A stretch of 64,000 nt of DNA from Stomoxys calcitrans (lineage: Eukaryota; Arthropoda; Insecta; Diptera; Muscidae). Below the pieces are notes generated by a model. The model was not told the origin of the DNA. It did no database searches and was given only the letters and a program-made list of their open reading frames with translations. The position numbers and the translations under genes were made by a program. Within the stretch, counting starts at the first letter, position 1. Each line of letters opens with the position of its first letter. Location: the NCBI RefSeq assembly GCF_963082655.1, contig NC_081555.1:183293424-183357423 (forward strand), in the 5' to 3' direction. This document shows positions 4,263 through 64,000 of the stretch, piece after piece.

Positions 4263-4289
4263 ATTCAAATTATTGAAGAAATTGAATGA

Positions 4290-8240: not shown

Positions 8241-8603
8241 AGTACTTCTGCAATAAAATCCACAACCATGTCATCATTACTTCTTCCAGCAAAAAAAATA
8301 TGCTATAATACATAGTAAGATGTATGTTTTTTACTCTTATTAATAATTCAATTTATCAAGACGTTATAATAGAAAAAACAAGTATTGTCATAAATTCAGT
8401 TTTAGATAAATTCATCTAACAATCAAAATGGTTTAGTTATATGTAAAACTAATGTGCTTAAAATTAAGTAGTAGGGTATGGTTTACACTTTTCTAATTAT
8501 CCCAGTTCGTGCTATCAATGGTTAGTTATACGACAATCGTTGCAAATAATGGAATAGAATTCAGGTATCCATTTCAAAAATAGACAAGTATATGGAACTA
8601 GAG

Positions 8604-9497: not shown

Positions 9498-9503
9498 ATT
9501 GAG

Positions 9504-9519
9504 CTACGAATAATAAGAC
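9504..9519 (-). promoter_or_regulatory. Candidate splice acceptor before the accessory ORF
   Basis: On the minus strand, TCTTATTATTCGTAG ends 7 nt before the ATG of the downstream ORF. A donor-like GTAAGC starts at 9549, 22 nt after the pol stop codon, which would give an intron of only 46 nt. Alternatively a donor in the 5' leader could be used, as for spliced env mRNAs. Inference from motif only. Confidence 0.35.
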
Positions 9520-9571
9520 TTTAGATTGCTAGTGTCATGTGATGCTTACTTTCATATATCTAAAGTGCGAG

Positions 9572-16659: not shown

Positions 16660-16677
16660 GTTCGAAATGGACCAAAA
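16660..16677 (-). other. Primer-binding-site position
   Basis: Reading on the minus strand, TTTTGGTCCATTTCGAAC follows the CATCATCA end of the 5' LTR. TGG, expected opposite a tRNA CCA tail, begins 3 nt inside. I could not match the following bases to a fly tRNA acceptor stem, so the primer is unassigned. Confidence 0.45.
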
Positions 16678-17142
16678 TGATGATGTGAATTGGGAACCAA
16701 TCAGAACAACACCTATGGATGCGAGAGGGGGAACGGGGAGCGTCTCGTGAGCCAAGAGTTGAGTGGGTTGATGTGAAGTCTGCAATACTTCACGTCTCGA
16801 GGAGAGTTATTGGAGGTTGTGTTCCAGGTAGAGGAGTGGAAAGATAACCAAATAAAGCACACACAAGAATTAGGGTGGTTGGATAGCTACGACTTTATTT
16901 CTTTGGAATGATCTTACCAGTTCGGCGGATGAAGTCAAAAAGAGGCAGAAGTCTTAAGACTACGCGCGGAAGTCATAATTTTGACATGGCTTATGTTGCG
17001 GCGAAATGGCATTGTTAAACTTTGACATAACTTGACGAAGTGATTAATATCTTTTTTAAGTAATTGGGGATTTCTAATATTTTCTATAGGAGTTCAATTA
17101 AGCGGGCAAATTGTAGGGTTTCTCAAGCATTTCGCGTGAACA
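16678..17142 (-). repeat. 5' LTR of the BEL/Pao element
   Basis: 465 bp. It differs from the other LTR only at 16858 (C against T at 7941). In element sense this is the upstream LTR and should hold the promoter. No unambiguous TATA/Inr pair was assigned. The adjacent GTGTT (17143-17147) is the second copy of the target duplication. Confidence 0.95.
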
Positions 17143-17147: not shown

Positions 17148-17561
17148 CATTCACCGTAACGTTGCGTCCAACAGCATCTTTGAAAAAATACGGTCCAATG
17201 ATTCCACCAGCGTACAAACCACACCAAACAGTGCATTTTTCGGGATGCATGGGCAGTTCTTGAACGGCTTCTGGTTGCTCTTCACTCCAAATGCGGCAAT
17301 TTTGCTTATTTACGTAGCCATTCAACCAGAAATGAGCCTCATCGCTGGACAAAATTTGTCAAAATTTGAACACATTTCGAACCGAACACTGATTTTGGTA
17401 ATAAAATTCAATGATTTGCAAGCGTTGCTCGTTAGTAAGTCTATTCATGATGAAATGTCAAAGCATACTGAGCATCTTTCTCTTTGACACCATGTCTGAA
17501 ATCCCACGGGATCTGTCAAATACTAATGCATGAAAATCCTAACCTCAAAAAAATCACCCTT
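17148..17561 (-). pseudogene. Mariner derivative, right arm with deleted transposase gene
   Basis: Read from 17561 leftward: the terminus AAGGGTGATTTTTTTGAGG, then the transposase start (ATG near 17448) reading MNRLTNEQ onward. After about 27 codons an internal deletion joins it to the region around the first catalytic aspartate (SDEAHFWLNGYVNKQ, about 17350) and on to GRNVTVNEH. There it met the inverted left arm before the BEL insertion. The open frame running to 17098 reads on into the LTR and is an artefact. A TA dinucleotide follows at 17562-17563, pairing with TA at 7566-7567. It cannot encode active transposase but keeps two ends. Confidence 0.85.
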
Positions 17562-17622
17562 TATTTGCCACTAATTGCAGATGAATAAAACTTACTAAAA
17601 TCAATCAATCTCCCATTTTCTG
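17562..17622 (+). mobile_element. AT-rich non-autonomous element, right part
   Basis: Continues the element interrupted at 7567. TTTGCCACTAA matches the complement of TTAGTGGCAAA in the inverse copy near 37688, and both copies end at CTGAGTG/CACTCAG. This fixes the pre-insertion order of the nested stack. Confidence 0.6.
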
Positions 17623-17742: not shown

Positions 17743-18181
17743 TTTATTATCAAAAACTAGCGCTCCAGAAGTTCAATTAGGATATTGATCTATATGGTGC
17801 TATTTCTCCATTTGAACCATTTCGGGACGAGCGTAAACTAACAAAGCGTGTGAAAAAAAAACACATTCATTCTAGTGTAACAGCCGAAAAAACAAATTTG
17901 GCCAACCATGTGTGCCATCCACGCATAAACAATGTTTAAGTACGCTGACGAGGAAAGAAATTATTAATACACGACCAGTGTTGCCGTTTTTCGTAGGTTC
18001 CTACCAAAAATGGTAGGTTTGTTTTCTTTTGGGAAGTTGATAGGCTGACCTCAAACTTTGGTAGGTTTTTCCAACATATAACTACTAAGCAAATTACTGG
18101 AAATAACCCCAAGGATAACTCAAAGTTGTTTCACTTCCCTTCGTTTCAGTGTATTCACTGAGTGTATGCTAAATAAAACCA
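17743..18181. other. AT-rich stretch, no gene seen
   Basis: Contains a GTAGGTTTGTTTTC...GTAGGTTTTTCC motif pair (about 17994-18070) that looks like a small repeat. No coding signal. Confidence 0.35.
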
Positions 18182-18870
18182 TTTTTATACCCTCCACCAT
18201 AGGATAGGGGTATACTTATTTCGTCATTCTGTTTGTAACGCCTCGTAATATGCGTCTGAGACCCCATAAACTATATATATTCTTGATCGTCATGGTATCT
18301 TAAGTCAATCTAGCCATGTCCGTCCGTCCGTCTGTCTGTCGAAATAACGCAAACTTTCGAAGGAGTAAAGCTAGGCGCTTGAAATTTTGCACAAATACCT
18401 TTTATTAGTGTAGGTCGGTTGGGATTGTAAATGGGCCAAATCGGTGCATGTTTTGATATAGCTGCCATATAAACCGATCTTGGGTCTTGACTTCTTGAGC
18501 CGATTTGACTGAAATTTTGCACGTGGTGTTTTGGTATCACTTCCAACAACTGCGCTAAGTATGGTTCAAATCGGTTCATGTTTTGATATAGCTGCCATAT
18601 AAACCGATCGGGGATCTTGAGCCTCTATAGGGCGCAATTCTCATCCGATTTGGCAGAAATTTTGTACAACAGCTTCTCTCGTGACCTTCATTAAACATAC
18701 GTATCTAATATGGTCTGACTCGATCAATAGCTTGATACAGCTCACATATAAATCTATCTCCCGATTTTGCTTCTTGAGCCCCTACAAGGCGCAATTCTTA
18801 TCCAAATGAACTGAAATATTACACAATGACTTCTACAAGGATCAGCATTCATTTATGGTCCGAATCGGAC
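18182..18870 (-). repeat. Type A repeat, reverse orientation
   Basis: Begins TTTTTATACCCTCCACCAT at the left, then GTCCGTCCGTCCGTCTG and several units with GATATAGCTGCCATATAAAC. It lacks the AAGTAAAA head and instead runs directly into a forward type B tail, so the locus is a composite. Confidence 0.65.
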
Positions 18871-19125
18871 TATAACTTAAATCGGCGGATCTGTCTATAT
18901 GGGGGCTACATCAAGATATAGTCCATCTTGGAACTTACCCAGCTTATAGACAAAAAAAAAGAATCTGTGCAAACTTTTAGCCCAATATCTCTATTTTTAA
19001 TGACTGTAGCATGATTTTAACAGAAAGACGGACGGACATGGCCGGATCGTCTTAGGTATTTTACGGCGATCAAGAATATATATACTTTATAGGATCGGAA
19101 ATGAATATTTAAACCGTTTCAAACG
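18871..19125 (+). repeat. Type B repeat, 3' part
   Basis: Contains the type B phrases ATCGGCGGATCTGTCTATAT, CAATATCTCTATTTTTAA, GACGGACGGACATGGCCGG and ATCAAGAATATATATACTTT. The final GGTGGGTA stem is lost. Confidence 0.6.
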
Positions 19126-20949
19126 GATATAAAAATAAATAACATTCTGCGACTTCAGGCCATTTAACAATGTCCCTTTTTGAAAGATTACAATGTTAAT
19201 TTATGGAAAAAAATGATTTTCTAAGACCTTTTTCACAAAAAACTTCTTTTTGTGAATCTTTTCTTAAAAAATTTCTGAATAGCAACCTTCTTTGCTTCAA
19301 TAATTTGCAGTAGGTAAGCAAACCGTTAATTCAAACATCAATTTGTGTCTACTCTGTGTATATGTGCATATATAAATCATCACATATTTTTAGGAACCAA
19401 ACTTTCTGATTGTTGCAAATGGCATTATTTCATTAATAGATGGCACCAACGATGACTTATTTTGAAGTGGTTGCTAATTAAATATTAGAACGATGTGTTT
19501 TAATCATTTTTACCAATAAATGTACATAGTAAAATATCATTATTTTTTTACCCAACTTGCGGGCTCGCTGCGCTTTGCTACCCCTAAGACATATTTTTGA
19601 AAGTGGTTTTTACTTTAAACATTGTTAAGCTGATAATCAAGACATTGATTTGGGATACAACATTTTCAGATATACTCAGATCCTTTCTCTGTCAATCCAA
19701 ACTCGTGGGCAAAAACCAAAGACCTTCCATTGGTGCCCTATTTTCCGAACGGTCTTAATGTTTTTTTTTTCTATTTTCCCCTTTTTTGAGGATAGGTGTA
19801 CTGAAATTAAAGTTTGGTTTTATTGTCATTGGGGAAAGGGGGTTAGTCCCACCGACATTTGGACCCAAATAATAATACAAATGGTAATGATGAGTACTTT
19901 TTTTGTCGCGATCTACATATCCTGTTGAAGGACTGGGCATGACCCAGACACTTGGATCCTTATAATAATATCAGAATCGTATTCTACTTTCATAGACTAA
20001 TTGTATTGATCAACCTACATGTCCTATTGAGGAGCATGTAGTGGGTGGGGCAGTACCTAATGTCTTTGTTCTTAATATGTATACCAGATTCGTAGTCTTC
20101 TCTCTAAGACATTTTATCGAATACCCATTGTTTTGGTTTGAACGTTTTTGGCAATGGGGAGTCCCCGAATATACCTTGGACCAAATTCTTATATTAGATA
20201 CATATGTACTCTGCTTCTAAATACGTTTCATTTGATACCCATATTGTCCCTATCAGTAAATATGACCGGTTGGGTTTTGCGAAGAAAAATGCACAACAAC
20301 AAAACGAGAAATAGTGACAAAATGCTGAACCTATTCCAAGTACACATTAAGTAGTTTACTTGAACTTTACTTGTAAAATTCCCCCATCAAATTTTCATAA
20401 ATGAGACAATTTTCATTGTATACCTACGTGGACATATTTCAATAGCATACATTTTAGATTTGTGATAAAAATTATTAATATTATAAATAATTTCTTAACA
20501 TGTATGAAACCAAGTTTCATAAATACATGTTTTTCAGGAACGATCATATTCATACATTTTCTTACATTAACAATTTTCTGTGATTTTATTGTTGACCTTT
20601 GAAATTTTATAACTTTGTCTTCTTGGTTTAGCTCGATGTCATCAAACAATTTACAAAAACAGGTGTTGGTGTTTTATTTGTAATTTTTATCAATATTTTG
20701 ACCACCGCCGGTAACAAACAAGTAATTTTACAATAAATTAAAAACATTTATACATTTGAAAATAATTACATTTTGAAACAAAACAATACAGCGCACCAGC
20801 TCGACTAAAGCTCTCTCATTTTTGTCTGTATTTTTTTTTCATAATATCAATGACTTTTTTCATTAATATAATAAAAATTTTTATAATATTTGTGAACAAA
20901 ATGGTATAAAAGCCGATCATTAAATTTGTGAAGGAAAATTCTCTCTGTG
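19126..20949. other. AT-rich stretch, no gene seen
   Basis: Long open frames on either strand (for example 19650-19928, 20413-20649) have no recognisable domain and low-complexity composition. Phrases such as GGACCCAAATAATAATA and CTTGGATCCTTATAATAATA suggest an internally repetitive decayed element around 19840-20110. Confidence 0.35.
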
Positions 20950-26715: not shown

Positions 26716-28758
26716 TAAAATTTTAACACGTTTTACCAATTAAAACAAACCAAATCAGTGTTCCCATACTAAAAGCTGAGGGTTTTTCAAAATGTTCAGA
26801 CTCCCGGACCGCACCTTCAAATCGAACTGTGAACAATGAGTTAACCACGACCTATTTTTAAATGTCCATTACAAAAGCCTTAAATAATTTTCTTTTAAGT
26901 TACAAAATCTAGTCAACTGATCACACACTTTTATATAGGGTGTTATTTTTGGACGTTTTCAAGAATAAATATAATTTAATGAAAACTACACGTCTAAAAA
27001 TTTAAATCACTGCTAAATTTATTGACATAATTGGTCAGCAGCATGTGTTCGGCATTCCTTTAAAGTCAAGTTCAATAAAGAGGACAATGGGTTTTCATTG
27101 TTGCTGCAAATTTCTTTTTTTTATGCTCTTCGGCATATAGTCGGTTAACGTAGAACCTCCAAAATCCACACCAAATACGGCTTAGATTAACTCATAACAA
27201 GCAATAATATAGCTATTTTTCTTCTTAATTATCGGTGTCTTAAACGAAGGGATTAGCAATTTCCACAATTTTGAGGCATTTTGTGTGTGTGTGTTTTTTA
27301 ACTAAATGACAGAATTGTTCTCTTCTGGTGGATTTTCTTTCATAATGACATTTGCATTGTACAGGAAATGGTGTAGTGATGCTTCATTGTAAGTAGGTCG
27401 TATTCATTCTTTGTTTCATATGCCATGGTTTTATTACTTGTTGCCAATCGTTATTTCCTGCCTGATATGATGGTAGCTATAAAATCGGTACAATGTTTAA
27501 AGCACTCACCGAGCTACCAACAAAATATGGGCCAAAGCATTCTGTTTATTACTCCGCCCGCCCAGTCAATCCTGAGGGCAGGCATATCGAGATTGCCAGA
27601 ACCTCTTCAAAATGCTGTTGATCGATATGTGTTCATTGCCACTGGAGTACCCAACTACTTCTGAAACAAATTTTGATAGCGAGGTGTCCGTCACCTTAAT
27701 AACGGGTATAGATTAACTTGGCTTTTCTTATATCTCTTCACGTTGGCCATTGTGTCAGTGTGAAAATCGGTTAAGTCCAGTTGACAAATTTAAATTTTCG
27801 CTGACGCATTTTTAATTCGTTGAGTTCGAAATTCAAGATAAGTTTTAAACTCATTAAAAACGTTTGCCCGATTTGTTTTCCATAATTGGTGACAAACTAT
27901 CATTAACCGACCTAACACCAAATGCGATACGGGTAATTCGATTATGGCTATCGTATATAATTGTGTGTATATTAGAATGGGTTTGATAAGGAGCCATTAT
28001 ATGTTTTATAGTTTTCACATCATGAGAATATTGGCATAACAATATTAGATGGTTGAAAAGGGATTCTCTGCACGAACAAATCATTTAGCGATTTTATCTT
28101 TGAACTTAAGTGAGATGAGCTTCAAGGAAACTACAGACGAACCTTCCACAATGATTCAAAATAATTAAATTGGAATTTTAACATATTAGTTCTAAACACT
28201 TTTATTCCGTTAAAAGTTAATTGCTCCAACCAATTCCCATGCACTTATTTGATTGACAATTCATTGTATGTAGATAGAGTATCACTGACATTTCGGACAA
28301 AGAATTTGCAAGAGTCAATCTTATCTTTTGTATCTTGTGAAAATATAACATTACCCACTCTGGCATAAAGCGTTCAACACATGGCGACTCGTCTTTCCGT
28401 GGACAATGACGTTATTCGAGCATTTTTTCAATTTTGTCTCTTTGTTAAATTCGTTGCAAACGACAACACAAACGTTGAAGTAAATGCTGACATTGAAATA
28501 ACTGCGACAGAGAAAAGTCTTAATGCATTTTAATTGCGCCGTATATAGTTGACGACAACTCAAAAGCGAATTTGTTCGAACGACCAAAAACAATAAAAAT
28601 CTACAGAATACGAATAGTGGGTGCCCCGGATATTCTGCCAAAAATGTAGTAACACCAAGTGACGAACATGAATGTCAGTCGGCCAGCTAGATAGCTAGAC
28701 CAGACCCATCTAAGTAAACTGAATGTAAGCATGGACATAATAGTAGAGGTATATTTAT
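26716..28758. other. AT-rich stretch, no gene confirmed
   Basis: The plus-strand open frame at 27425-27664 includes a locally GC-richer segment (about 27540-27660) reading PEPLQNAVDRY-like text. I do not recognise it and see no splice context. Minus-strand frames at 27854-28084 and 28351-28641 are likewise unassigned. Confidence 0.3.
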
Positions 28759-30124
28759 AACAAGTAAAAGCGTGCTAAGTTCGGCCGGGCCGAATCTTAT
28801 ATACCCTCCACCATCGATCGCATTTGTCGAGTTCTTTTCCCGGCATCTCTTCTTAGGCAAAAAAGGATATAAGAAAAGAGTTGCTCTGCTATTAAAACGA
28901 TATCAAGATATGGACCGGTTCGGACCACAATTAAATTATAAGTTGGAGACCTGTGTAAAATTTCAGCCAATTCGTATAAGAATTGCGCCCATTGGGGCTC
29001 ACGAAGTAAAATAGAGAGAACGATTTATATGTGATCTGTATCGGGCTATAGACCGATTCAGACCATAATAAACACATTTGTTGATGGTCATGAGAGGATC
29101 CGTCGTACAAAATTTCAGGCATATCGGATAATAATTACGACCTCTAGGGGTCAAGAAGTCAAGATCCCAGATCGGTTTATATGGCAGCTATATCAGGTTA
29201 TGAACCGATTTGAACCTTATTTGACACAGTTGTTAAAAGTAAAAATAAAATACGTCATGCAAAATTTCAGCCAAATCGGATAGGAATTGCGCCCTCTAGA
29301 AGCTCAAGAAGTCAAGACCCAAGATCGGTTTATATGGCAGCTATATCAGGTTATGGGCCGATTTCAACCATACTTGGCACAGTTGTTGGGTATCATAACA
29401 AAACACGTCGTGCGAAATTCCATTCCATTCGGATAAGAATTGCGCCCTCTAGAGGCTCAAGAAGTCAAGACCCAAGATCTGTTTATATGGCAGCTATATC
29501 AGGTTATGAACCGATTTGAACCATACTTCGCACAGTTGTTGGATATAATAACAAAACACGTCGTGCAAAATTTCATTTCAATCGGATAAGAATTGCGCAC
29601 TCTAGAGGCTCAAGAAGTCAAGACCCAAGATCGGTTTATATGGCAGCTATATCAGGTTATGGGCCGATTTGAACCATACTTGGCACAGTTGTTGAATATC
29701 ATAACAAAACACGTCGTGCAAAATTTCATTCTGATCGGATACGAATTGCGCACGCTAGAGGCTCAAGAAGTCAAGACCCAAGATCGGTTTATATGGCAGC
29801 TATATCAAAACATGGACCGATATGGCCCATTTACAATACCAACCGACCTACACTAATAAGAAGTATTTGTGCAAAATTTCAAGCGGCTAGCTTTACTCCT
29901 TCGGAAGTTAGCGTGCTTTCGACAGACAGACGGACGGACGGACGGACGGAGGGACGGACGGACGGACGGACGGACAGACGGACGGACATGGCTAGATCGA
30001 CATAAAATGTCACGACGATCAAGAATATATATACTTTATGGGATCTCAGACGAATATTTCGAGTAGTTACAAACAGAATGACGAAATTAGTATACCCCCC
30101 ATCTTATGGTGGAGGGTATAAAAA
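28759..30124 (+). repeat. Full-length type A repeat with five 153-bp units
   Basis: The best-preserved copy. The head AACAAGTAAAAGCGTGCTAAG is followed by the hairpin TTCGGCCGGGCCGAA (28780-28794) and ATATACCCTCCACCAT. The unit landmark ATCGG (ATCTG in one copy) recurs at 29171, 29324, 29477, 29630 and 29783, exactly 153 bp each time. Next come a GACG/GGAC microsatellite (about 29921-29990) and the end ATCTTATGGTGGAGGGTATA, inverting ACCCTCCACC. Several open frames read across the units in different phases and are not genes. Resemblance to DINE-1/Helentron-type elements is inferred from structure only. Confidence 0.85.
29921..29990 (+). repeat. GACG-type microsatellite
   Basis: Runs of GACG and GGAC inside the full-length type A copy. 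Shorter versions of the same run occur at the equivalent position of every other copy in the window. Confidence 0.85.
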
Positions 30125-30436
30125 TGTATAAATATATACACACTCAGAAGGTATCTGGTAGCTAAATATGTTGAAAACATCTATTGTAAATCCCTGTTAA
30201 AATAAAAACAAAACAAAAAAACATGGGAATTGTTATAGGAAATCTATGTAATCATCTTCCACAGTGGGTGACAGAAGAACAACAAACTAGGCAAACATTT
30301 TTATTACACTCTTCACAGGGTATTTTTTTTTTACTTGATGACAATTTTTGTAACATCTGAAAACAAGAGAGATTGATCCAATGTTTAGAATACCAATTGG
30401 CTGAAAACACATTCAAAGTCGAATCAGCCGTAACAC

Positions 30437-34205: not shown

Positions 34206-35536
34206 TAGTTGAATTAAATCAATCATTTTTCGCTTGATTGGAACCTCACATATGTTACGTCGTCAAGACATTGCTTGCAACAAACCGTATGAATGACTTG
34301 ACAATAAATTAATCAGAATTTTTTATTCCATTCTCATTGCATGCATTTATTGAATAACAAAGTGCCCACTGTGTGAACATTCAATTTAAAACAAAAATCT
34401 ATTTACAATAGCGAACTCGAACCGGTCGCACGTGTACTCGTACCTGTGCATTGCTATTGGCATAAGGGTTATACTCATATGGCGTTCCTACCAAAAAAAA
34501 AAAAAAAAAAGACAACAAAGTTTATTATCAGTGTTCATAATGTGGGCTGGATTCTTTGTAGTTTCATAGATACTATGCGGAACGCTGCGAAAAGCCTTTG
34601 CTAATATTGAACTTAGCGACATTGCTGGCCCCGGACAGAGGAGACCATCCATATATGCCTCGCTAATCTAATTTATGTCAATATTTTTGCTTCCCCACCT
34701 TCCAACTACAAAGAAACATGCATTAACATTTACGCTTACACTCGAGACGAAATATTCGAATAGGGAAACATTTATCATCCAAGATAAGACTGAATGTTGA
34801 CTTTGGCCTTTTACGCTGCAGTAACAATTGCATCAACATTTTTCTCGAGTCTATAAACGCTCTTAAAATTGTACTACGACTATGATTTGTGCTTTCGTAT
34901 TTTTACTACCTACCGCACAATGAATTCGTTTGATTTCTAATTGAACTCTATTACGAAACTCAAATATTTGCTCATCTTGGTTCCTTATCGCCTATTTGTT
35001 TGGTTTGGCTTATTCCAGTTTCGTATTGCAGTTAATTATATTTTTTTCTTTTTGCTTTCAATAGCCGCCTGTGATGGCCGGCCGATCTTAACAGAGGCCG
35101 TGATTACCTGTTCGCAAGACATCACGTGCATGGGTTTTAAGTAACAAAGTATTGCCTTGAAGTTCATAAATTTCGAGAGTGCGATAAAATTGGCAATTGT
35201 GGCCAATGAAGAATAGTTTCGTAGCACCTCGAATGCTGGTGACGATCACAATTATTAACATATTTATATCGTTCTCATAAATAAACAAAAACAAGATAAA
35301 ACAAAGAACCGATTTGGTAATAAAGTGAAGGCGAGTAGAGTTTAGCGCTGCACAAATAAAAAATAAACTAGCAAATATAGCATTCCAAAAGTGACACATG
35401 GCCCAAAATACTCTAAAATATGATATTTTTATTAGTGCTTCAATTCGCTTGCCTTATAAAAGCGAATTGAATTCCATTTTTAAATTATTTTTTTTTATTA
35501 TAGGTTATTATGAATTTAAAGTGGATTTCTTGTGTG
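34206..35536. other. AT-rich stretch, no gene confirmed
   Basis: Contains an A-run (about 34493-34510). A strong acceptor-like pyrimidine tract TTTTTTTCTTTTTGCTTTC ends in AATAG near 35064, before a short GC-richer open segment (35065-35142). That segment does not resemble SLC16 sequence. Confidence 0.35.
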
Positions 35537-36546
35537 TTTTTATACCCACCACCGAAGGATGGGGGCATATTCATTTTATCACTCCGTTTGTCATTCACAT
35601 CGAAATAGCCATTTCCGACCCTATAAAGCATATATATTCTTGATTAGCGTAAAAATCTAAGACCATCTAGCCATGTCCGTCCGTCTGTCTGTTGAAATCA
35701 CGCTACAGTCTTTAAGAATAGAGATATTGAGCTGAAAATTTGCACAGATTCTTTTTTTTTTTGTTAAGCAGGTTAACTTCGAAGATGGGCTATATCGGAC
35801 TATATATTGATATAGGCCCAATATAGACCTATCCGCCGATTTAGGATCTTAGGCCCATAAAAGTCACATATATATCCGATTTTGCTGAAATTTGGGACAG
35901 TGAATTATGTTAGGCCCCTCGACATCCTTCTTCAATTTGGCCCAGATCGGTACAGATTTGGATATAGCTGCCATATAGACCGATCCCTCGATTTGAGTTT
36001 TTGGGCCCATAAAAAGCGCATTCATTATCCGATGTCGCCGAAATTTGGGACAGCGAATTAGGTTAAGCCCATCGACATACTTCTGCAATATGGCACAGAT
36101 TGGTCCAGATATTGATCGATATCTCGATTTAAGGTTTTGGGCCCATAAAAGGCGCATTTATTGTCCGACGTCGCCGAAATTTGGGACAGTGAGTTGTGTT
36201 GGGCCCTTCGACATTCTTCTTCAGTTTGGCTCAGATCGGCCCAGATTTGGATATAGCTGCCATATAGACCGATATCTCGATTTTAGGGTCTTGGCCCCAT
36301 AAAAAGCGCATTGGTTTATTTTTAGATATAGCTACTTAAAAGACCGATATTTTTTTAATACGCAATTGAGCAATGACTTGTACTTATAAGTATTTGGTCC
36401 AAATCGGAACATATTTCGATATAGCTGCTACGGGGCATAAGGTAAGCATTTTTCACCGGATTTTGACGAAAGTTGGTTTACATATCCCACCCGAGGTGGT
36501 GGGTATCCAAAGTTTGGCCCGGCCGAACTAAACGCCTTTTTACTTG
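35537..36546 (-). repeat. Full-length type B repeat, reverse
   Basis: From left: TTTTTATACCCACCACCGAA, GTCCGTCCGTCTGTCTG and units with GGATATAGCTGCCATATAG. On the right come CCCGAGGTGGTGGGTA, TTTGGCCCGGCCGAA and TTTTTACTTG. Head and tail are both present, so this is a good reference copy for the type B family. Confidence 0.8.
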
Positions 36547-43840: not shown

Positions 43841-44728
43841 ATCTTATATACATACCCTCCACCATGGATCGCATTTATCAAGTTCTTTGAATGACATTTT
43901 CAAATATAAAAACATCACCTCCAAAATTTCAGGCAAATCGAGTAATAATTGCACCCTCCAGAGGCTCAAAAATTTAAACTGGGAGATCGGTTTTTATGGC
44001 ACCTGTATCAGGTTATACACCGATTTAGACCATACTTAGAACAGTTATTGGAAGTCATACCAAAACGATATATGCAAAATGTCAACCTATTGAATAAAAA
44101 TTGCGCCCTCTAGAAGCCCAAAAAATCTAATCGGGAGATCGGTTTATACGGCGCCTATATCAGGATATGGAATGTTTTAGACCATACTTGACACACTCAT
44201 TCGAAGTCACAATAAAACACTTTATGCAAAATTTCGGTCAAATCGGATAAGAATTGTGCCCTCTAGAAGCTCAAGAAGTCAAAACCCTACTAAATCGGTT
44301 TATATGGCAGCTATATCAGATTTTCAACCGATTTAGACCGTACCTAGCATAGTTGTCGGAAGTGATACCAAAAGTCCACGTGCAAAATTTCAACCAAATC
44401 GGATAAGAATTTCGCCCTCTAGAAGAAGAGTCAAGACCCAAGATCGGTTTATATGGCAGCTATATCAAAACATATACCGATTTGGCCCATGTACAATTCC
44501 AACCGACCTACACTAATAATAAGTACTTGTGCAAAATTTCAAGCGCCTAGCTTTACTTCTTCGAAAGTTAGCGTGCTTTCGACAGGCGGACGGACATGGC
44601 TCGGATCGACTTAAAATGTCATGACGATCAATAATATATATACTTTATGGGGTTTCAGACCCATATTTCGAGGTATTACAAACGGAATGACGAATTTAGT
44701 ATACCCCCCATCCTATGGTGGAGGGTAT
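43841..44728 (+). repeat. Type A repeat
   Basis: Head ATACCCTCCACCATGGATCG without the AAGTAAAA leader, then four to five units, GGACGGACATGGCTCGG and the end CCTATGGTGGAGGGTAT. It lies between inverted TTGGTAT-containing sequences at about 43647-43676 and 44838-44863, so it may have inserted into another element. Confidence 0.75.
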
Positions 44729-44864
44729 GACAAATATTTTCTAATGGTGTCAATATTTTAAGTACAAAGCAAAAAAACACTTTTGCAGCAGTGACAATAA
44801 TACAATTTGACGCCGTCAATTCTTAATAACCATCTTCGTCTGGTATTAAATTGACACCAAATGG

Positions 44865-50490: not shown

Positions 50491-50639
50491 TCAGAAAAAA
50501 AGTTGGCCCATCATTTAAGATTTTTCCTTATTTGTATGATTTGAGCTATGAAAACGAGTCAAGAACCAAATCTTTAAAATGAAGAGAATATATCTAAGTT
50601 CAATTTCTTTATTAATAACGAACAACACCATGAAAAACA

Positions 50640-51159
50640 CCTCATCCGAAATTTCAGCCAAATCGGATAAGAATTGAGCGCTCTATTGGCTCAAGAATTC
50701 AAGATCCAAGATCGGTTTATATGGCAGCTATACCAGATTATGAACCGATTTGAACCATACTTAACACAGTTGTTGGAAGTGATACCAAATCACCACGTTC
50801 AAATTTTCAGTCAAATCGGACGAGAATTGCCCCCTCAAAGGCTCAAGAAGTCAAGACCCAAGATCGGTTTATATGGCAGCTATATCAAAACATGAACCGT
50901 TTTGGCCCATTCACAATCCCAACCGATCTACACTAATAATAAGTATTTGTGCAAAATTTTATGCGGCTAGCTTTACTCCTTCGAAAGTTAGCGTGCTTTC
51001 GACAGACAGACGGACGGACGGACATGGCTAGATCGACTTAAAATGAAATGGCGATCAAGAATATATATACTTATGAGGGCTCAGACGCACATTTCGAGGT
51101 GTTACAAACAGAATGACGAAATTAGTATTCCCCCCATCCTATAGTGGAGGGTATAAAAA
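50640..51159 (+). repeat. Type A repeat, 3' half
   Basis: Two to three units (ATCGGTTTATATGGCAGC at about 50710 and 50863), GACAGACGGACGGACGG and CCTATAGTGGAGGGTATAAA. The head is missing. Confidence 0.75.
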
Positions 51160-51737
51160 CTAAACACATATAGACGCTTCTATTTCCTGGGCTATTGTGC
51201 TTTTTTTACTTAGGAACACTGTTTTTTTTTTGTCCCAAAGTCAATTTCCTAACTTTCACCATCATTTGAGATTTTTGTCTTCAATAGCAAGAAGCAAAGT
51301 TAAGGATCAATTAACCTACCATTTAAAATAAAAAAATTATAAATATCAAGCAAAATATTTCTCGTTTGTTTCTCTTTAGAGACGAGCTTAATGATAGAAG
51401 ATTTTTTGCAATGAGAAAAGCAAAGCCAGAGATCACAAGACACCAACCTCGTTTCGTTTTTGGTTAGAAGACTTTTCAACCATATTAAGGGTCATACATT
51501 GGTAGGTCGTACTTATATCGACTATACCGCGAAAACGTGTCTACGATGTATGCACGTCACTAACACACATTTGACACCTTTCACACGAACTGTTCTCTTC
51601 CATCGCATGAGTTTTTTTTTTGTAGAGATAGACTAATTTTCTACACCACTACATGGCCTCCATGGTATACACATGTTATTTGTGCATCTTTTGGACATCT
51701 CAGGCTAGACTGAGGAACTTAACCAATCTTTGTGCTA
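51160..51737. other. AT-rich spacer
   Basis: No gene recognised between two type A copies. Confidence 0.35.
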
Positions 51738-54265: not shown

Positions 54266-56837
54266 TTTATTTATGGCCTTGTTGTTTACAAAATATTACC
54301 GAAGTTGAATGATAAACTCACCGTCATTTATTGAATATTTCCGATTCTAGAAAATTGCAGTGGCCAACGCGTAAAAATATTTTCCAAATATAGATACATA
54401 ATTGTGAGGCTATTTTTATTTAATGATGTGTGCGGCAGCAAGATATTTGCTTTTGAAATGATTTATGCTTGACATGACGACAGGAGTGATAGGACATTCT
54501 ATTTAATTTCAAAGTTGGACGTTTGACCAAAACATCAAAATTAATTAGAAAATCGAATAGAAGCGCAGTGATGCTGAATCTGCTGATCATTTGTTTGAAC
54601 ATATCATACGATCCAAATCTAACCATATTTGAATATACACAGAAAAAATTTGGCCGGTAATTTAAGAATTTTCCTTATTCGTAGGATTGTTATTGTTTCA
54701 TGAAATTATGTTGCCATATTCTCGTTTTTAATTAATTCTATTATAATAATATATATTTTTATTACAAGACAATGATCAACTTGCTTCTAGTTGCATTATT
54801 CTAGCTTTTTTGGTTCGCTGTAGGCGAAGTTGAACTATTTTTATTCTAACAAAATTAACAAATTTTGTAACCCCTTTCTCATCCTACGAATTTTAAATCC
54901 ATTTTCAACATTCTTAACGGTTTGTCCTGGTGGATGAAGTCAATCAGTCAGTCAAGCAGCTCTTTAAATGTTTGTTACCTTTAAAGGATTCAAGGTTGAA
55001 ATTGTATATTTACACAAAATCTAATGTTGATATCTTCAACCAAAATCACTTACTTTTATTTCTTCCCCAATAGACACATATATTTAGGGCATAATAGTAC
55101 TTTTAATCATTTTTAGTAGCATCTAATAAGCGCTTTACAAAATTGCTACAAACAAAATTTCAATGCAATATTTTAATGCGTTGGGTGAAAATATATTATT
55201 TATCAAGCCCGTTGCTTGAAAATAATATGTGTTACAAATCTGACATTTTTAGTGCCAAATAGTATTTCAAATTTCGGATTTCCTGCTCATTAAGTGGTTC
55301 GGGAAAAGTACATTTCGTACAGTTGTACGAAAGTAGATACGTTCAACTTACAACTGTACGAAAATTATCCATTTTCGAACAGTTGTTGGAAAAAATTTAC
55401 ATTTCGTCACATTTTAGTACAAATGTAAACCAATCCAAACCTTCCTGGCCCCTTTGATCCCTTTGTAACTTTCATGTATAATTTCAAAATTGTGACTTAA
55501 GCCGACTTGTCTAGACATTTTTCTATTATTCCACACTGACAAATATAACTATGCTATATGTAAATATATCTATGCAGGTAAAATATGTCCGATTCCAAAT
55601 TTTAACATCTGTTTACCGATAACTCAATTAAAACTATTTTTGTCGCACCCTCCCATACAAATAGAACCAGTGTACAATGTACGATCTTTGAAGTCCCCAC
55701 ACCTAAAGATTATTGATGATGACACTCTTTGCCACCCACACTAATTACGGTCAACGACCCTCCACATATTAATATAGCTCAAGACATAACTCTAACATTC
55801 GGTTCTATCAAGAGGCTATGTAAATTTTAACCACGACGTTTTTTGTTTTCTTAGCGCAATTACTTCTAACAATGCGAGTATCTAATGAACATCTAATGTC
55901 ATGAAGTTTGGACCATCTTCTAAGGGTAGCTCAACTTGGTTCTTTCTTATGCCTTATTTCTTGCCAAATAAAGCGTGTGTCACTATTCACTTTTGCTGTC
56001 GCGCCTATTAGAAGCGTTGTCAGCTTTTTTGTCAATACAATTTTTTGTATAGAATATCAATTACTACATCAAAATTGTGCTGAATGGGTAGACATGTTTC
56101 TATTAATCTTGTTGTGATAATTAAACAGTGTAAAGTGAAATGACAAACAAAAGTCGCCTTAATCGTTTGCTAGGAAAATTTTCTCATAACTAATACTTGG
56201 CAACAGTCGACCGTAAATAGTACGGCATTTGTTTGTTGGTGATTTCATTTAACAATTGCTCAAGAATAACTTATTTTTACTACTGTTGTTGCAGTTTTGT
56301 GGCAGCAGATATTTTCTTCTTGAGTACAGGCGCATGTTAATGTTGTTTGTCAATATTTCGTGCGGTGCTAAAAAGTTACGCCATGTAAACAATTCTATTT
56401 TCTAAATAGTTTTTAAGTCATATTTTTTTATTTCGGCTATAAGTTATGAAAGAAGAAAATCTTCGAAATGAGCTCATTTCTGGATATTTTTAAATAAAAT
56501 TACACTACACATTTCCATTAAATTCTACTTGGCAGTAAATGAGAGACAGAAATGTTATTTGGTGTTTATAAAAATAAATATATTTTAGAAAAAGGTCAAA
56601 CATTTTCGAATGTATTTCTTGTAAAAGGTTTGCAGACAGCGGGATAACGCAGGTATGAATTACCTTTATTTGTTGTTGTAGACTCAAAGAAGATAGTCCG
56701 CCTAATGCAATCTTACTTATTTTCATTATAAAAAGGAAATCTTATTAAAGAACTAGAAAAGGTGCATTAAAATTAAGCGTAAATGCTTTGTTGTCTAATA
56801 CGACATACTGCCTAACAAGTGCGATTTGCAAATTGCA
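54266..56837. other. Long AT-rich stretch, no gene seen
   Basis: Contains the GTACGAAA motif cluster (55313-55390). Open frames at 54420-54626, 55908-56117 and 56505-56726 have no recognised domain. Confidence 0.35.
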
Positions 56838-57120
56838 AATTTTGCCCACGAACATTGCACTAAGGAACAGGGGCAAACTTCTCTCATATCAATGAGTGCA
56901 GTACGATTCAAGTTTAAGCTCAATGATAAGGGGCCTCCTTCTTATGGCCGAGTCCGAACGGCGTGCCGCAGTGCGACACCTCTTTGGAGAGAAGTTTTAC
57001 ATGGCATAGTACCTCACAAATGTTACCAGCATTAGGAGTGGAAAACCACCGCTGAAAATTTTTTCTGATGGTGTCGCCAGGATTCGAAACCAGGCGTTCA
57101 GCGTCGGTCATGCTAACGTT
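56838..57120 (-). repeat. tRNA-derived SINE, best reverse copy
   Basis: Body from TTTTGCCCACGAACATTGCA through ATAAGGGGCCTCCTTC, GAACGGCGTGCCGCAGTGCG and CCGCTGAAAATTTTTTCTGA to CCAGGATTCGAAACCAGGCG. The last contains the reversed B box. The A-box head is truncated at GGTCATGCTAACG. The Transib element inserted 26 bp beyond its edge. Confidence 0.8.
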
Positions 57121-57141
57121 CGTCCTTTAAAGTGCGATTAA

Positions 57142-57146
57142 CATCG
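57142..57146 (+). other. Left target-site duplication CATCG of the Transib element
   Basis: CATCG is repeated at 62464-62468. Five-base, GC-containing duplications are the rule for Transib insertions. Confidence 0.85.
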
Positions 57147-58567
57147 CACAGTGGGCCAAATGGCAAAAAAATTGGAAATAAGTCTACAACTTTTTATCTG
57201 TTGATTTTAGCCATACAGACATTTGTAGAGGAGGACATAGGCTTTCAGAAAAGTGCTGTTGTTGGTCCATATCTTTAATACAGGGTGAGCTACAGGGTGT
57301 CAAAGTTGACCACTTTTGACTTCTCCAAGCTTCTGGGGGCCATAACTTTTGATCTACTCAACCGATTTACATGATTTAGGACTCTAGAGAAAGAGCTTGA
57401 CAAGATCTAAAAAACTTATGCATAAAGAACCATGCCATCGTGTACTGTTAAGGAGTTATGAATTGTTTAATTTTAAAATATGAAAATTTGGCCTTGGTTT
57501 TTTTCAGTGTTTTTTTAATAACTCCGTCAATTTTAAAGCTATAAACTTCATACTTCACACAAATTATGCCAGCATATGTGTGCATAAAATACAAAAGGAA
57601 TCACGTGAATATCTTTGGCGGTTTAAAAATGGCATCGTTTTCAATATGAAAAATATTTTTTTTGTCAAAAAATTGCAAAATTTTTCAAAAAAGATACTCC
57701 CATTTCCTTTAAGTTTTCGCAAACTTTGGCCGTCAAAGCATTATCATTTCTTTCCATTTTCACAAAGTCGAGGTATTAAGAAAAGTTTTAAGTGCTAATT
57801 TGGCTAATTTCGATATCAAACAACACCGTTATCTTAAGACCAAAATGGCCAATTTTTTTACTAAACTTCAAAAGTTTCTCACTGGAAAAAAAGTTCCACG
57901 GGGATTTTTTCGCTTTTTTTGAACTTAAATGAAAGCTTAAAATGTTCCCAACATTTTAAGGTATGTCTCGCCATATCCTAGCCATAAATGAGATCGTAGC
58001 GATCAAAATACTGAAAAAAGTCAATTTTCAAGTAGTGCTATATTCATTGCTAAAAAACAAGTATTACGTCACATTTTATTGCAAAGATGTTAAATAAACT
58101 TTTATTTGGTAACACTTCTTCTACAAAACACAAAAAGAATCATGGAAATATCTCTATTCTATTCCATTTTATGGAACCGGCAATAAAAAAGTCAATTTTT
58201 CAAAAAAGTCGAATTTCCCAAATTTTGTTTTTGTTGTCCTAATTGCACATGACACACTATAGCCATATTTACGCAACATACCTTATCGTAAAGGAAATTT
58301 TCATACCTTTCCAACGATGTATAAAACATTTCTCAACTCGGATTCTATCTACTCTAAAATTCATTTACACTTCATTAAACTCTATATAAAAATGTCTATT
58401 TGTGAAATGGAACCTTATATGGGGCCTACACTAAAACATTGATAGATTTGCCCAGGGTTTACAATACAAATGTGTTAGAATAAAAAAAGGTCTCCTGCCA
58501 AAGTTTAAAAAAATTGGAATAAAAATATGTGTTTTAGAGCGAAAACACTTCGCATCGGCGTGCGTTT
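57147..58567 (+). repeat. Left inverted arm of the Transib element
   Basis: 1421 bp. It inverts 61055-62463 up to GCATCGGCGTGCGTTT, after which the two sides diverge. It has a 22-bp segment (about 58212-58233) absent from the right arm and lacks a 10-bp segment present there. The 72-codon open frame at 57580-57798 starts at an ATG and is mirrored exactly in the other arm; no domain is seen, and it may be fortuitous. Confidence 0.92.
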
Positions 58568-58793
58568 GTATAGTACCTACATCTATTTTTAATGTAAGCT
58601 GATGATTTTTGAATAAAAAGTAACCTAGAAATATACCTGCATATATATATATATTTGTGTTAAGATTTGATGCAGACAAATGTTACCTGTTTCGCTATGT
58701 CGAATTCCCAGGAAATCCACCGTATCAATGAATGTGAAAAAACCTACCCATAAAAAATTCATTGTCATTTTTTTTAACCAAATTCGAGTCCAG

Positions 58794-58939
58794 GTAAATA
58801 ATTATAGAAGAGTAAGTAAAAAGAGGCACTTTGGACCCCTTTTTACGATTGCGTCTGATACCTGAAATGGGTCATTAATTGTGAATATATTGCATAAATA
58901 TTTGAACAAAATCCAAATTTTCTTCATTATATTTTGTAG
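58794..58939 (+). other. Candidate 5'-UTR intron of the transposase gene
   Basis: CAG followed by GTAAATA at 58794, and TTCATTATATTTTGTAG ending at 58939, 24 nt before the start codon. Splicing would give a 146-nt intron; the upstream open frame (58680) would then hit a stop before the ATG, so the coding start would not change. Motif-based only. Confidence 0.4.
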
Positions 58940-58963
58940 AGGCGTAAAGGACATTTATAAGTT

Positions 58964-61006
58964 ATGGAAGTCATACTGAAGTATTCCACTCTTTCGAAAA
59001 TTGTATGGGACATCAAAAATGATTCCAAATCATACACGGAGTCATTTAAGGAACTTGTTTACACTTTGGACCACATATATGGAATAAGGCTAAATAAAGA
59101 CGCTTTAGACAAACTTGAAAAATTCTACAAATCATTTGAGAGAAGGTTGCCAGAATGTTCATTCGCAAAAATCAAGTTTTTCAAAATGTATGAGAAGTGG
59201 CTGAAATCGGATCTACTTATTGAAATTAAACCGCTGATTCCCGGCCGGCCTAGCAAAGCATACGACGAAGTTACGGAGAAAACCAAAAAGAAAAAACAAG
59301 AGGAACTATTGGCGGCACATCCGCCAAATTTAATAAAAGATACGTTCAAAACAGCATTGTTAAAAACACAACCAAAAAATGTTGGACGAATTGTCGATGT
59401 TTTACCATTAGCATCTCCGAAAAGGGTAAAGAGAATGGTAGAAAGTATTCCAACTCCAAAATCGACTACAGAATTCACGGAGGAAGATGCACTGGCCCTG
59501 ATTTTGAACCTAGGCCTCTCAAGAAACAAATACTCAACAATGAGGAAGGCTCTTCGTGAAAAAGGATGGGGTTGTTTACCCTCAAAACATAAATTGTACA
59601 ACACCAGGACGAAAATGGTGCCATCAAATATATACGTGGACGAATTAAAAGCAAGAGTGAAACTTGCTGATCTTGTTGAAAATACAGCTGTTAGAATTAT
59701 TTCTAATTTTACTGAAGAACAGTTGAACACATGTAATAATTCCGAAGTGGTTTTGATCAGCAAATGGGGTTGTGATGGATCATCTGGATTTTCCGAATAT
59801 AAGCAACAAACAGAAATAGATACCAACTTCGCATCAATTTTCATGGCATCATTAGTACCATTGAGAATGAGATTGTACAAGGACCAATCTTCATCATCGA
59901 AAGAAAATGCATTTCAAGATATATGGATAAATAGAACACCTGGGTCAAAATATTTATGTCGCCCAATTCGGTTTGAGTATACAAAGGAAGACCGGAACAC
60001 AACACGATCTTTGGTGAACGAAATAAAGGAAGAAATTGCTGCATTACCCATGATTGTTATAAACCAATTGGGAAGAAATATAAAAGTTTCGTTTCAACTA
60101 CAACTCACTATGATCGATGGAAAGGTGGCAAACGCATTAACTGGCGTTATGTCCAATTGGAGATGCAATATTTGTGGCAAGAAGAATGGGCAATTCGAGG
60201 ACAAGTCTGATGAAAATTTAGTAAACGAAAATGCGCTCAATTTCGGTATTTCGCCCCTGCACTGTAGAATTCGATTCATGGAGTATTGTTTGCATTTATC
60301 GTATGACCTTAAATATCGGACTAGCCCTGGAAACCGCGATGTCTCTGCTAGAAACAACCAAGATCTTCACAAAATGAGGCAGGAAGAGAAGAATCGAATC
60401 CAGTTGGAGTTTAAACAAAAGGGACTTATAATAGATAAACCTCTTTACGGATACGGAAGCACAAATGATGGCAACTCGGCAAGGCGGTTTTTTGAGGACC
60501 CCGTATCGACATCTAAAATAACCGGTCTTGATGAACACTTGCTAAGACGATTCAAAGTGATTTTGGCTGTAATCAATAGCAAAAAGATGATAAATTCAAC
60601 CAAATTTGAAGCTTATAGTAATGACACAAAAAACATTTTATCTGATTTATATTCGTGGAAAGCTTTAACACCGACAGTACATAAAGTCTTACATCATGGC
60701 AAGGAAATTGTGGAATACAACATACTTCCGTTAGGAGAACTTACAGAAGAAGCTCAGGAATCCCGTAATAGAGATGTTAAACAGTTCCGGCTTTTCAATA
60801 CCCGAAAGAGCACCAAATTTAACCAAAATTATGATTTACTTCAATATTTATTGTTATCGTCTGATCCGGTACTATACAGCATCAGAACTAAATGGCTACC
60901 AAAAATATGTGACGATATAGATAAGGACGATCCCGATGCCATTCAAATTAAAGAGCTTTTAAATTTTGATACCTTAGATTATTTGGTAGAGAATAAAATC
61001 AAATAA
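58964..61006 (+). CDS. Transib transposase (RAG1 core-like)
   Basis: A 680-residue protein from ATG 58964, uninterrupted. The length fits Transib transposases. The RNase-H-like catalytic acidic residues are D271 in KWGCDGSSGFSEYKQ, D385 in TMIDGKVANAL, and a glutamate in LTEEAQESRNRD (E595/E596/E599, most likely E596). The zinc-binding pair corresponding to RAG1 C727/C730 and H937/H942 is C401-C404 (RCNICGKK) and H573/H578 (VHKVLHHG). Other family text includes YGSTNDGNSARRFF (497-510), ITGLDEHLLRRF (519-530) and LLLSSDP (629-635). The basic N-terminal half (90-215) is probably for end recognition and DNA binding. There is no RING finger as in vertebrate RAG1, and no RAG2 partner nearby. It should cut at CACAGTG ends by a nick-hairpin mechanism in the nucleus, by family analogy. 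All key residues are present, so activity is plausible. Confidence 0.93.
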   Translation: MEVILKYSTLSKIVWDIKNDSKSYTESFKELVYTLDHIYGIRLNKDALDKLEKFYKSFERRLPECSFAKIKFFKMYEKWLKSDLLIEIKPLIPGRPSKAYDEVTEKTKKKKQEELLAAHPPNLIKDTFKTALLKTQPKNVGRIVDVLPLASPKRVKRMVESIPTPKSTTEFTEEDALALILNLGLSRNKYSTMRKALREKGWGCLPSKHKLYNTRTKMVPSNIYVDELKARVKLADLVENTAVRIISNFTEEQLNTCNNSEVVLISKWGCDGSSGFSEYKQQTEIDTNFASIFMASLVPLRMRLYKDQSSSSKENAFQDIWINRTPGSKYLCRPIRFEYTKEDRNTTRSLVNEIKEEIAALPMIVINQLGRNIKVSFQLQLTMIDGKVANALTGVMSNWRCNICGKKNGQFEDKSDENLVNENALNFGISPLHCRIRFMEYCLHLSYDLKYRTSPGNRDVSARNNQDLHKMRQEEKNRIQLEFKQKGLIIDKPLYGYGSTNDGNSARRFFEDPVSTSKITGLDEHLLRRFKVILAVINSKKMINSTKFEAYSNDTKNILSDLYSWKALTPTVHKVLHHGKEIVEYNILPLGELTEEAQESRNRDVKQFRLFNTRKSTKFNQNYDLLQYLLLSSDPVLYSIRTKWLPKICDDIDKDDPDAIQIKELLNFDTLDYLVENKIK

Positions 61007-61054
61007 TACAAAACTAAAATGCTTTTTTATTTTGGGAGTAGCTAATATACATAT

Positions 61055-62463
61055 AAACGCACGCCGATGCGAAGTGTTTTCGCTCTAAAACACATATTTT
61101 TATTCCAATTTTTTTAAACTTTGGCAGGAGACCTTTTTTTATTCTAACACATTTGTATTGTAAACCCTGGGCAAATCTATCAATGTTTTAGTGTAGGCCC
61201 CATATAAGGTTCCATTTCACAAATAGACATTTTTATATAGAGTTTAATGAAGTGTAAATGAATTTTAGAGTAGATAGAATCCGAGTTGAGAAATGTTTTA
61301 TACATCGTTGGAAAGGTATGAAAATTTCCTTTACGATAAGGTATGTTGCGTAAATATGGCTATAGTGTGTCATGTGCAATTAGGACAACGACTTTTTTGA
61401 AAAATTGACTTTTTTATTGCCGGTTCCATAAAATGGAATAGAATAGAGATATTTCCATGATTCTTTTTGTGTTTTGTAGAAGAAGTGTTACCAAATAAAA
61501 GTTTATTTAACATCTTTGCAATAAAATGTGACGTAATACTTGTTTTTTAGCAATGAATATAGCACTACTTGAAAATTGACTTTTTTCAGTATTTTGATCG
61601 CTACGATCTCATTTATGGCTAGGATATGGCGAGACATACCTTAAAATGTTGGGAACATTTTAAGCTTTCATTTAAGTTCAAAAAAAGCGAAAAAATCCCC
61701 GTGGAACTTTTTTTCCAGTGAGAAACTTTTGAAGTTTAGTAAAAAAATTGGCCATTTTGGTCTTAAGATAACGGTGTTGTTTGATATCGAAATTAGCCAA
61801 ATTAGCACTTAAAACTTTTCTTAATACCTCGACTTTGTGAAAATGGAAAGAAATGATAATGCTTTGACGGCCAAAGTTTGCGAAAACTTAAAGGAAATGG
61901 GAGTATCTTTTTTGAAAAATTTTGCAATTTTTTGACAAAAAAAATATTTTTCATATTGAAAACGATGCCATTTTTAAACCGCCAAAGATATTCACGTGAT
62001 TCCTTTTGTATTTTATGCACACATATGCTGGCATAATTTGTGTGAAGTATGAAGTTTATAGCTTTAAAATTGACGGAGTTATTAAAAAAACACTGAAAAA
62101 AACCAAGGCCAAATTTTCATATTTTAAAATTAAACAATTCATAACTCCTTAACAGTACACGATGGCATGGTACTTTATGCATAAGTTTTTTAGATCTTGT
62201 CAAGCTCTTTCTCTAGAGTCCTAAATCATGTAAATCGGTTGAGTAGATCAAAAGTTATGGCCCCCAGAAGCTTGGAGAAGTCAAAAGTGGTCAACTTTGA
62301 CACCCTGTAGCTCACCCTGTATTAAAGATATGGACCAACAACAGCACTTTTCTGAAAGCCTATGTCCTCCTCTACAAATGTCTAGAACATTTTGTATGGC
62401 TAAAATCAACAGATAAAAAGTTGTAGACTTATTTCCAATTTTTTTGCCATTTGGCCCACTGTG
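61055..62463 (-). repeat. Right inverted arm of the Transib element
   Basis: 1409 bp, reverse complement of the left arm. It ends GGCCCACTGTG at 62463. It holds a 10-bp segment (about 62383-62392) missing from the left arm. The mirror of the 72-codon open frame lies at 61802-62020 on the minus strand. The transposase stop codon is about 50 bp before the arm begins. Confidence 0.92.
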
Positions 62464-62468
62464 CATCG
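62464..62468 (+). other. Right target-site duplication CATCG of the Transib element
   Basis: Identical to 57142-57146 and directly after the terminal CACTGTG. Confidence 0.85.
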
Positions 62469-62688
62469 TTAAAACAAAACGATTTCAAATAATTATCTTT
62501 GCATTTTTTTATAATTCTATGGCCGTTGTAAAATATCATCTTAATAACTTTGTGGCCCGATTTTACTAAAAATTGATGTACGGAATGCACTTATGATCTC
62601 CAAGATTAAAAAAAAAACGACCGCATCGCCCTAATATAAATAAAATCCCGATTTCATTTTTGAGTTGCTGCAAGACTATTAAGAAACA

Positions 62689-63640
62689 AGTAGAAAGGCC
62701 TTAAGTTCGGCCGGGTCGAACTTTAGATACCCACCACCTTGGGTATATATGCAAACCACGTTTCGTCATGATCCGGTGAAAAATGCATTATTTATGTCCC
62801 CATAACAGGTATACCGAAATATGGTCCGATTTGGACCAAATTCGGCACGGGCATTGAGTGGTCTAATAAGTACAAGTCATTGTTTAATTTTGTAGATCAA
62901 AATATTGGCTTTTTGGTAGCTATAGCCAAATATAAACCGGTCTGAACCGTATACAACACGGATGTCGAATAGCCCAACATATGTCACTGTGTCAAATTTC
63001 AGCGAAATTGAATTAAAAATGCGCCTTTTGGGGGTCAAGACTTTAAATCAAGAGATCGGTCTACATGGCAGCTATAGCCAGATCTGCACCGATCTGGGCC
63101 AAATTAAGGAGGAATGTCGAAGGCCCTAACACAACTCACTGTCCCAAAATTCGGCGATATCGGACAATAAATGCGCCTTTTATGGGCCCAAACTTTAAAT
63201 CAAGAGATCGGTCTATATGGCAGCTATATCCAAATCTGGACCGATCTTGGCCAAATTGATGAAGGATGTCGAAGGGCCTAGCACAACATTCAGCAAAATC
63301 GGATATTAAATGTGGCTTTTATGGGCCTAAGACCTCAAATCGGCCGATCGGTCTATAGGGTAGCTATATGAAGATATAGGCCGATATGGCCCATCTTTGA
63401 ACTTAACCTGCTTATGGACAAAAAAAAAATCTGTGCAAAGTTTCACCTCAATATCTCTATTTTTAAAGTCTGAAGCGTGATTTCAACAGACAGACGAACG
63501 GGCGGACATGGCTAGATCGTCTTATATTTTTACGGCGATCAAGAATATTTATACGTCATAGGGTCGGAAATGGATATTTCGATATGTTGCAAACGGAATG
63601 ACAAAATGAATATACCCCCATCCTTCGTTGGTGGATATAA
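62689..63640 (+). repeat. Full-length type B repeat, forward
   Basis: Head AACAAGTAGAAAGGCCTTAA, the hairpin TTCGGCCGGGTCGAA and ATACCCACCACCTT. The unit landmark ATCGGT lies at 63055, 63207 and 63347 (152 bp, then 140 bp because of a deletion), followed by GACAGACGAACGGGCGGAC and the tail TTCGTTGGTGGATATAAAAT. The open frame at 63065-63259 lies wholly within the units and is not a gene. Confidence 0.8.
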
Positions 63641-64000
63641 AATATTTTACCTCACGTTAAATAACCGTAAGAAAATATTCCTTCAAGACATCTATCCCAA
63701 TATAAGTTCAATGAATTCGTATTTCATATTATAGATCGAAACGAAATCGGATTTTGAAACAAACCGAAGTTCAAATAATTCCCCATTTCTGTTAAAAATT
63801 TCTATAAATGCAAATCTGTCAGTTTTAAAATGCACTAAGTTCGACATAAGTAAACAATGATAATCGATGACGATTATTGACTACAAGATACTCGTCGTCC
63901 AGTTAACGACAATTGCCTTGTATACAGTCAGCATGTGTTGAAAAATTGCCACTCTGGTAATTATAGCAAATCAATATCTCACACAGATAAGTGGTTTATG
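63641..64000. other. AT-rich edge of the window
   Basis: No gene or repeat recognised. Confidence 0.35.

Follow-up and report, generated by a model that had tools for sequence, protein, structure and literature searches.

The locus studied here raises the question of how a transposon of the Transib family, from which RAG1, part of the machinery that joins our antibody genes, is thought to descend, came to carry two nearly identical inverted arms of about 1.4 kb, and whether these belong to a wider family of elements or to this one site. The window, the whole stretch of 64,000 nucleotides that was analysed, comes from the stable fly Stomoxys calcitrans (contig NC_081555.1; C4:183293424-183357423 of the 1.07-Gb assembly), and a complete Transib transposon of 5,317 bp lies at its positions 57147-62463, with CACAGTG at the 5' end and CACTGTG at the 3' end. 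We regard it as very probable that this is an insertion of an autonomous Transib whose family spread in a very recent burst by cut-and-paste transposition, and that the arms are old and have been kept alike by copying. The element and its borders are made up as follows.

57142..57146, no strand: left 5-bp target site duplication CATCG, read from the sequence
57147..58567, + strand: left inverted arm, 1,421 bp, starting with CACAGTG, which resembles the heptamer of the recombination signal sequence (RSS); lacks 10 bp of the right arm
58568..58963, + strand: unique 5' core region, holding a TATA-like run at 58642-58654
58964..61006, + strand: Transib (RAG1-like) transposase gene, 680 amino acids, intact
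60992..61031, no strand: AATAAA motifs on both strands (+ at 60992, - at 61031), in the zone that separates the gene from the right arm, identified by motif
61055..62463, - strand: right inverted arm, 1,409 bp, ending CACTGTG; lacks 22 bp of the left arm
62464..62468, no strand: right 5-bp target site duplication CATCG, read from the sequence

The heptamer-like ends and the CATCG duplications of the original prediction are seen on both sides, and its arm lengths were reproduced exactly. CACAGTG occurs within the element solely at the two termini. The RSS nonamer has the consensus ACAAAAACC; it is absent at 12 or 23 bp past the heptamer, the best candidates matching at 6 of 9 positions with spacers of 9 and 11. 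The TATA-like run is a possible promoter of the transposase gene and the AATAAA pair a possible two-way polyadenylation zone, which would be compatible with a transposase unit placed between the arms; since the DNA is so AT-rich, such motifs are weak evidence.

The transposase open reading frame (ORF) encodes 680 residues with no stops and contains D271, D385, C401/C404, H573/H578 and E599, the last being the final glutamate of TEEAQES. Across 37 aligned sequences D271, C401, C404, H573, H578, E595 and E599 are kept in all, and D385 in 36. Sequence, profile and fold searches all group the protein with HzTransib and RAG1: homology to HzTransib extends along the core (E 6.8e-84), the profile search places the protein in Transib/RAG1 (E 2.1e-189), and the fold is RAG1-like. 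HzTransib is the sole Transib enzyme with a solved structure among the matches found (6pqn, 6pqr, 6pqu, 6pqx, 6pqy, 6pr5); the protein model aligns with it up to residue 672, and residues 1-164 are without a counterpart in the match to the solved chain. Residues 94-96 form a GRP motif, with G and P each kept in 36 of the 37 sequences, which the profile alignment places, weakly (about 7 bits), opposite GGRPR of RAG1. At the level of sequence, an intact RAG1-like Transib transposase is thereby confirmed, as originally predicted. Besides the transposase, the only ORF of at least 90 amino acids in the element is an antisense one of 251 amino acids overlapping the transposase; no gene-sized RAG2-like gene was found inside the element, small or spliced ORFs having had no homology search. 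DNA of relatives was sought in viral contig and genome contig collections, and no confirmed relative was found there. The short public contigs of the nearest relatives (at most 837 bp outside the gene in 16 of 16, versus 24 of 61 in more distant ones) were considered as a sign of common long arms and are not relied on, because transcripts could look alike, because source and protein length guided the choice of rows by hand, and because neither the transposase studied here (longest contig 3,780) nor P0005 (3,961) fits.

An initial DNA search of the genome, in which very common words were skipped, gave one perfect and 27 diverged matches. Counts of exact 38-mers across the 1.07 Gb gave 1,526 family-type ends (765 + 761) and 713 transposase matches (361 + 352), with none for the reversed-pattern control in either count, which corresponds to some 763 copies with two ends and to 713 genes for the transposase; were all copies full length, the family would make up about 0.38% of the genome. 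A protein search found 1,493 candidate places, and the best 65, which were scored, all encode an identical, full-length, stop-free protein of 680 amino acids (100% identity to that of the window); all lie on C1, and the number is a floor rather than a random sample. One hundred ends listed from the first part of C1 form 48 inward pairs, of which 34 have the spacing expected of a 5,349-bp element to within 5 bp, 13 are shorter or slightly different and one is 14.4 kb apart, leaving four ends unpaired, one of them at the edge of the listing. The 14.4-kb pair (G000:C1:23890654-23905135) encloses a single listed transposase match and is possibly an element with an insertion, or two incomplete copies.

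Four complete copies chosen from the 65 are each 5,349 bp long, with cores identical to that of the window. Relative to one of them (L049), six substitution events are counted inside the arms over some 21.4 kb, a rate of 2.8e-4 per bp that leaves out one extra change at the L048 arm boundary. In ten more copies, chosen for full-length spacing, 9,600 bp of arm sequence hold three one-arm changes. At usual insect mutation rates, this would make the burst at most some 1e5 generations old.

The target sites were resolvable in eight of ten copies tried, each of the eight with a perfect 5-bp duplication (TGACG, CACCG, CGTCG, CGGCG, TGTCG, CGACG, CATCG and CGACG); in the remaining two, one end lay outside the examined stretch or was unmatched. 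CACAGTG stands at all 18 ends found, of 20 expected, in ten copies other than that of the window, the ends being located by a search for the family end with up to 3 substitutions. The insertion sites resemble CGNCG, in line with the GC-rich 5-bp sites given for RAG targets in an earlier study (PMC11844651). For the window copy, the pre-insertion site (57138-57146 + 62464-62472) would be TTAACATCGTTAA, which is palindromic around a centre of 3 bp. The insertion lies some 50 bp beyond the end of a dispersed repeat (56827-57095) with a tRNA-box-B-like stretch, read by eye, which is 72-81% like places at 48422, 40221, 37344 and 50244. Searches within the 64 kb for an empty site and for further relics of arms or ends gave nothing convincing, and Rfam gave no matches within the window.

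The two arms in the window differ by one substitution and two indels: 10 bp at about 70 bp from the end, present in the right arm alone, and 22 bp at about position 1,065, present in the left arm alone. A repeat search reports inverted stretches of 995 and 339 bp, each printed as 100% identical (by rounding in the 995-bp stretch, which holds the single mismatch), and chance is excluded. In the four full copies the 10 bp and the 22 bp are both present in each arm, and the arms are symmetric, at 1,431 bp in three copies and 1,435 bp in L048. A genome-wide count, which covers the 10-bp deletion alone, gave one exact match for the window's deleted left end; the 22-bp deletion was compared with the four full copies. 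The arms in the window are thus unequal because of two deletions absent from these four copies, and unequal arm length is not a family feature. The difference of 10 bp between left and right was considered as a 12/23-like rule and rejected as a rule of the family, because the deletion in the window is unique and the ends are symmetric in all four full young copies. Shortening near there is also seen in several decayed ends (L021, L025, L031, L033, L037 and one end of L046), 10-38 bp having been lost between the terminal box and a conserved box at arm positions 81-90, which is kept; the opposite end is full length in L031 and L037, as are both ends in L040.

Evidence on the age of the arms comes from the diverged loci L029-L047, the surroundings of 19 of the 27 diverged matches. 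In L030 one arm is complete (about 79% identity), the transposase is present in part, and the second arm is represented by its inner half; the two arms are 83% alike over about 490 bp. L031 likewise has a complete arm, at 80%, with 410 bp left of its partner. Most of one arm is matched in L032 and L034, about 980 bp in L043 and 711 bp in L029; in most other diverged loci the matches are confined to outer or scattered arm pieces. Since decayed relatives of about 80% identity have long arms, long arms predate the burst. A local duplication as their source, which the original prediction had set out, together with short TIRs in other copies, as one finding that would overturn it, is ruled out: long arms are a property of the family, in all four full copies compared as well as in decayed relatives.

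How arms of that age are still nearly identical is suggested by variants shared by the two arms of the same copy. In L048 this holds for each of two private substitutions, and the identity between its arms runs four bases past the usual boundary; between the window copy and the four copies two arm sites differ, each altered in both arms; and at arm position 380 all 15 copies viewed have the same base in both arms (T in 3, A in 12). It follows that the arms have at times been copied onto each other, and the best reading of these sequences is that arm-to-arm copying would be episodic rather than a constant homogenisation. The route may be gene conversion between arms, or template switching during gap repair.

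Several points weigh against so simple an account. Two one-arm changes are found in L050 and two in L051. Of the ten further copies (480 bp per arm), three have a single one-arm change, and these three changes stand against two two-arm changes, which are one variant seen twice. The variant at position 380 may be a single old conversion inherited by several copies, so that 15 of 15 should not be counted as 15 events. Homogenisation of the arms is therefore neither complete nor instant. The copies studied in detail all come from C1 and were selected because their proteins were intact or their ends had full-length spacing. The structure of the element, its family membership and copy number, the near identity of the sampled copies, independent insertions and two-arm variants are direct observations; the enzymatic steps (from HzTransib and RAG), present activity of the transposase and the route of arm copying are inferred.

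Two explanations would do away with either the burst or the copying. Near identity across 5.3 kb could in principle mean that the sequence was copied by segmental or tandem duplication, or in the assembly, rather than by transposition. However, each resolvable copy has a perfect duplication of its own and different flanks, the listed copies are spread along C1 in both orientations and several have private changes, and given the separate duplications in particular this explanation is largely refuted and we give it hardly any credence. It is also very improbable, if a little less so, that the identity of the arms reflects youth alone, with one arm duplication and no time to diverge. The low divergence among the four copies speaks for such a history, but L030 and L031, already long-armed at about 20% divergence, contradict it, and variants found in both arms of single copies speak against it too.

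What the arms are for is a separate matter. Their best internal self match scores 36.8 bits, against a best of 45.4 and a median of 28.3 in 100 dinucleotide shuffles, so that repetition within the arms does not exceed that of shuffled sequence. The 18-bp end motif, with up to 3 mismatches, was found in the window solely at the two ends. Conservation among the old copies, scored in tens across the first 260 arm positions in about 21 aligned segments, is highest at positions 81-90 (98%), followed by positions 1-10 (92%) and by 41-50 and 211-220 (91% each), which suggests a putative two-part recognition site. Long arms might serve as landing platforms for the transposase, as proposed for the terminal inverted repeats (TIRs) of Galileo with their several binding sites; the persistence of long arms in several decayed relatives speaks for this, as does the 81-90 box, which lies near the position of the first Galileo site, about 70 bp in (PMC3688188). 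We nevertheless think it rather unlikely, as the arms are not repetitive in the way of Galileo and the end motif is restricted to the two ends. Less likely still is an action through RNA, in which read-through across both arms would fold into a 1.4-kb hairpin feeding small-RNA silencing. By sequence logic such a transcript would be a near-perfect hairpin, but the promoter-like and polyadenylation-like motifs would fit a transposase unit between the arms, and hundreds of copies suggest that silencing, if any, failed to halt the burst.

The mechanism that we favour is that an autonomous Transib multiplied very recently, by cut-and-paste, and reached a copy number of several hundred, about 700-760 according to the exact 38-mers. 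Its transposase would recognise the CACAGTG ends and cleave by the nick-hairpin route, as HzTransib and RAG do, followed by insertion with 5-bp duplications; it may well be active at present. The 1.43-kb arms would be an old trait of the family, their near identity kept by occasional copying between them. A bolder extension, which we hold only tentatively and slightly ahead of the landing platforms, is that transposition of the family continues in stable flies today and that the arms are renewed by copying in the cycle of repair or transposition, the ends evolving as a unit, with the 81-90 box perhaps serving as another recognition site that corresponds to the RSS nonamer but lies much further from the end.

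Among known systems the closest is Hztransib of Helicoverpa zea, described in 2007 as an element of 3,518 bp with a deduced protein of 489 amino acids and "long TIRs" (PMC1852546). The stable fly family shares its transposase family, fold, 5-bp duplication and "long TIRs", and differs in size (5,349 bp and 680 amino acids). Long-TIR Transibs are thus not new as such, and a view of Transibs as known only with short TIRs is not supported; the claim that the arms are unusual is right in part. No Transib with 1.4-kb symmetric arms was found in the open-access literature. Nor did that literature contain arm-to-arm copying in Transib, a comparable burst in the stable fly, or any paper joining Stomoxys with Transib or Transib with long (terminal) inverted repeats, although such absence is soft, most subscription papers and Repbase lying outside the search. 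The GRP motif recalls the subgroup II Transibs, which have a GRP-type equivalent of the nonamer-binding domain (PMC9435367); a type 2 C-terminal tail and the absence of alpha11-alpha12 from the zinc-binding domain are further marks of that subgroup. With RAG1/RAG2 and the RAGL transposons (ProtoRAG) the element shares an RNase H core, zinc-binding C/H residues, a CAC heptamer and a 5-bp duplication; unlike them, it has no second gene-sized ORF that might be RAG2-like, and its arms are much longer. Kilobase-scale inverted arms are also found in Galileo (P superfamily; arms of 0.5-1.2 kb, PMC3688188) and Foldback, which have a transposase of another superfamily and, in contrast to the stable fly element, internal repeats in the arms.

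Other mobile sequences share the window. A BEL/Pao-like retrotransposon at 7761-17142 has direct repeats of 465 bp (99.8% identical), an ORF of 1,773 amino acids (9572-14893, minus strand) whose closest matches are Haematobia and Stomoxys proteins, and a second ORF of 299 amino acids (8604-9503) with, by eye, apparent zinc-knuckle and protease-like motifs of its own; outside the direct repeats lies an inverted repeat of 198 bp, 99% identical, at 7563-7760 and 17369-17566. The following element is dispersed over the window in several copies.

3165-5337, 18180-19141, 28757-30144, 35536-36312, 43902-44740, 50634-51178 and 62896-63642, both orientations: dispersed element that contains tandem repeats with a unit of about 152-153 bp

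If the continued activity suggested above is true, the stable fly harbours a natural and massively successful transposon of the RAG family. Hundreds of young copies point to a very recent spread, and its movement might still be observed as it happens. A family of about 700 young copies, in which no fewer than 65 have an identical intact gene, would provide an enzyme that is likely active, together with natural target sites by the hundred and deletion derivatives. Copying between arms bears on how long inverted repeats remain identical, and the family provides a clear test of the joint evolution of RAG-like ends.
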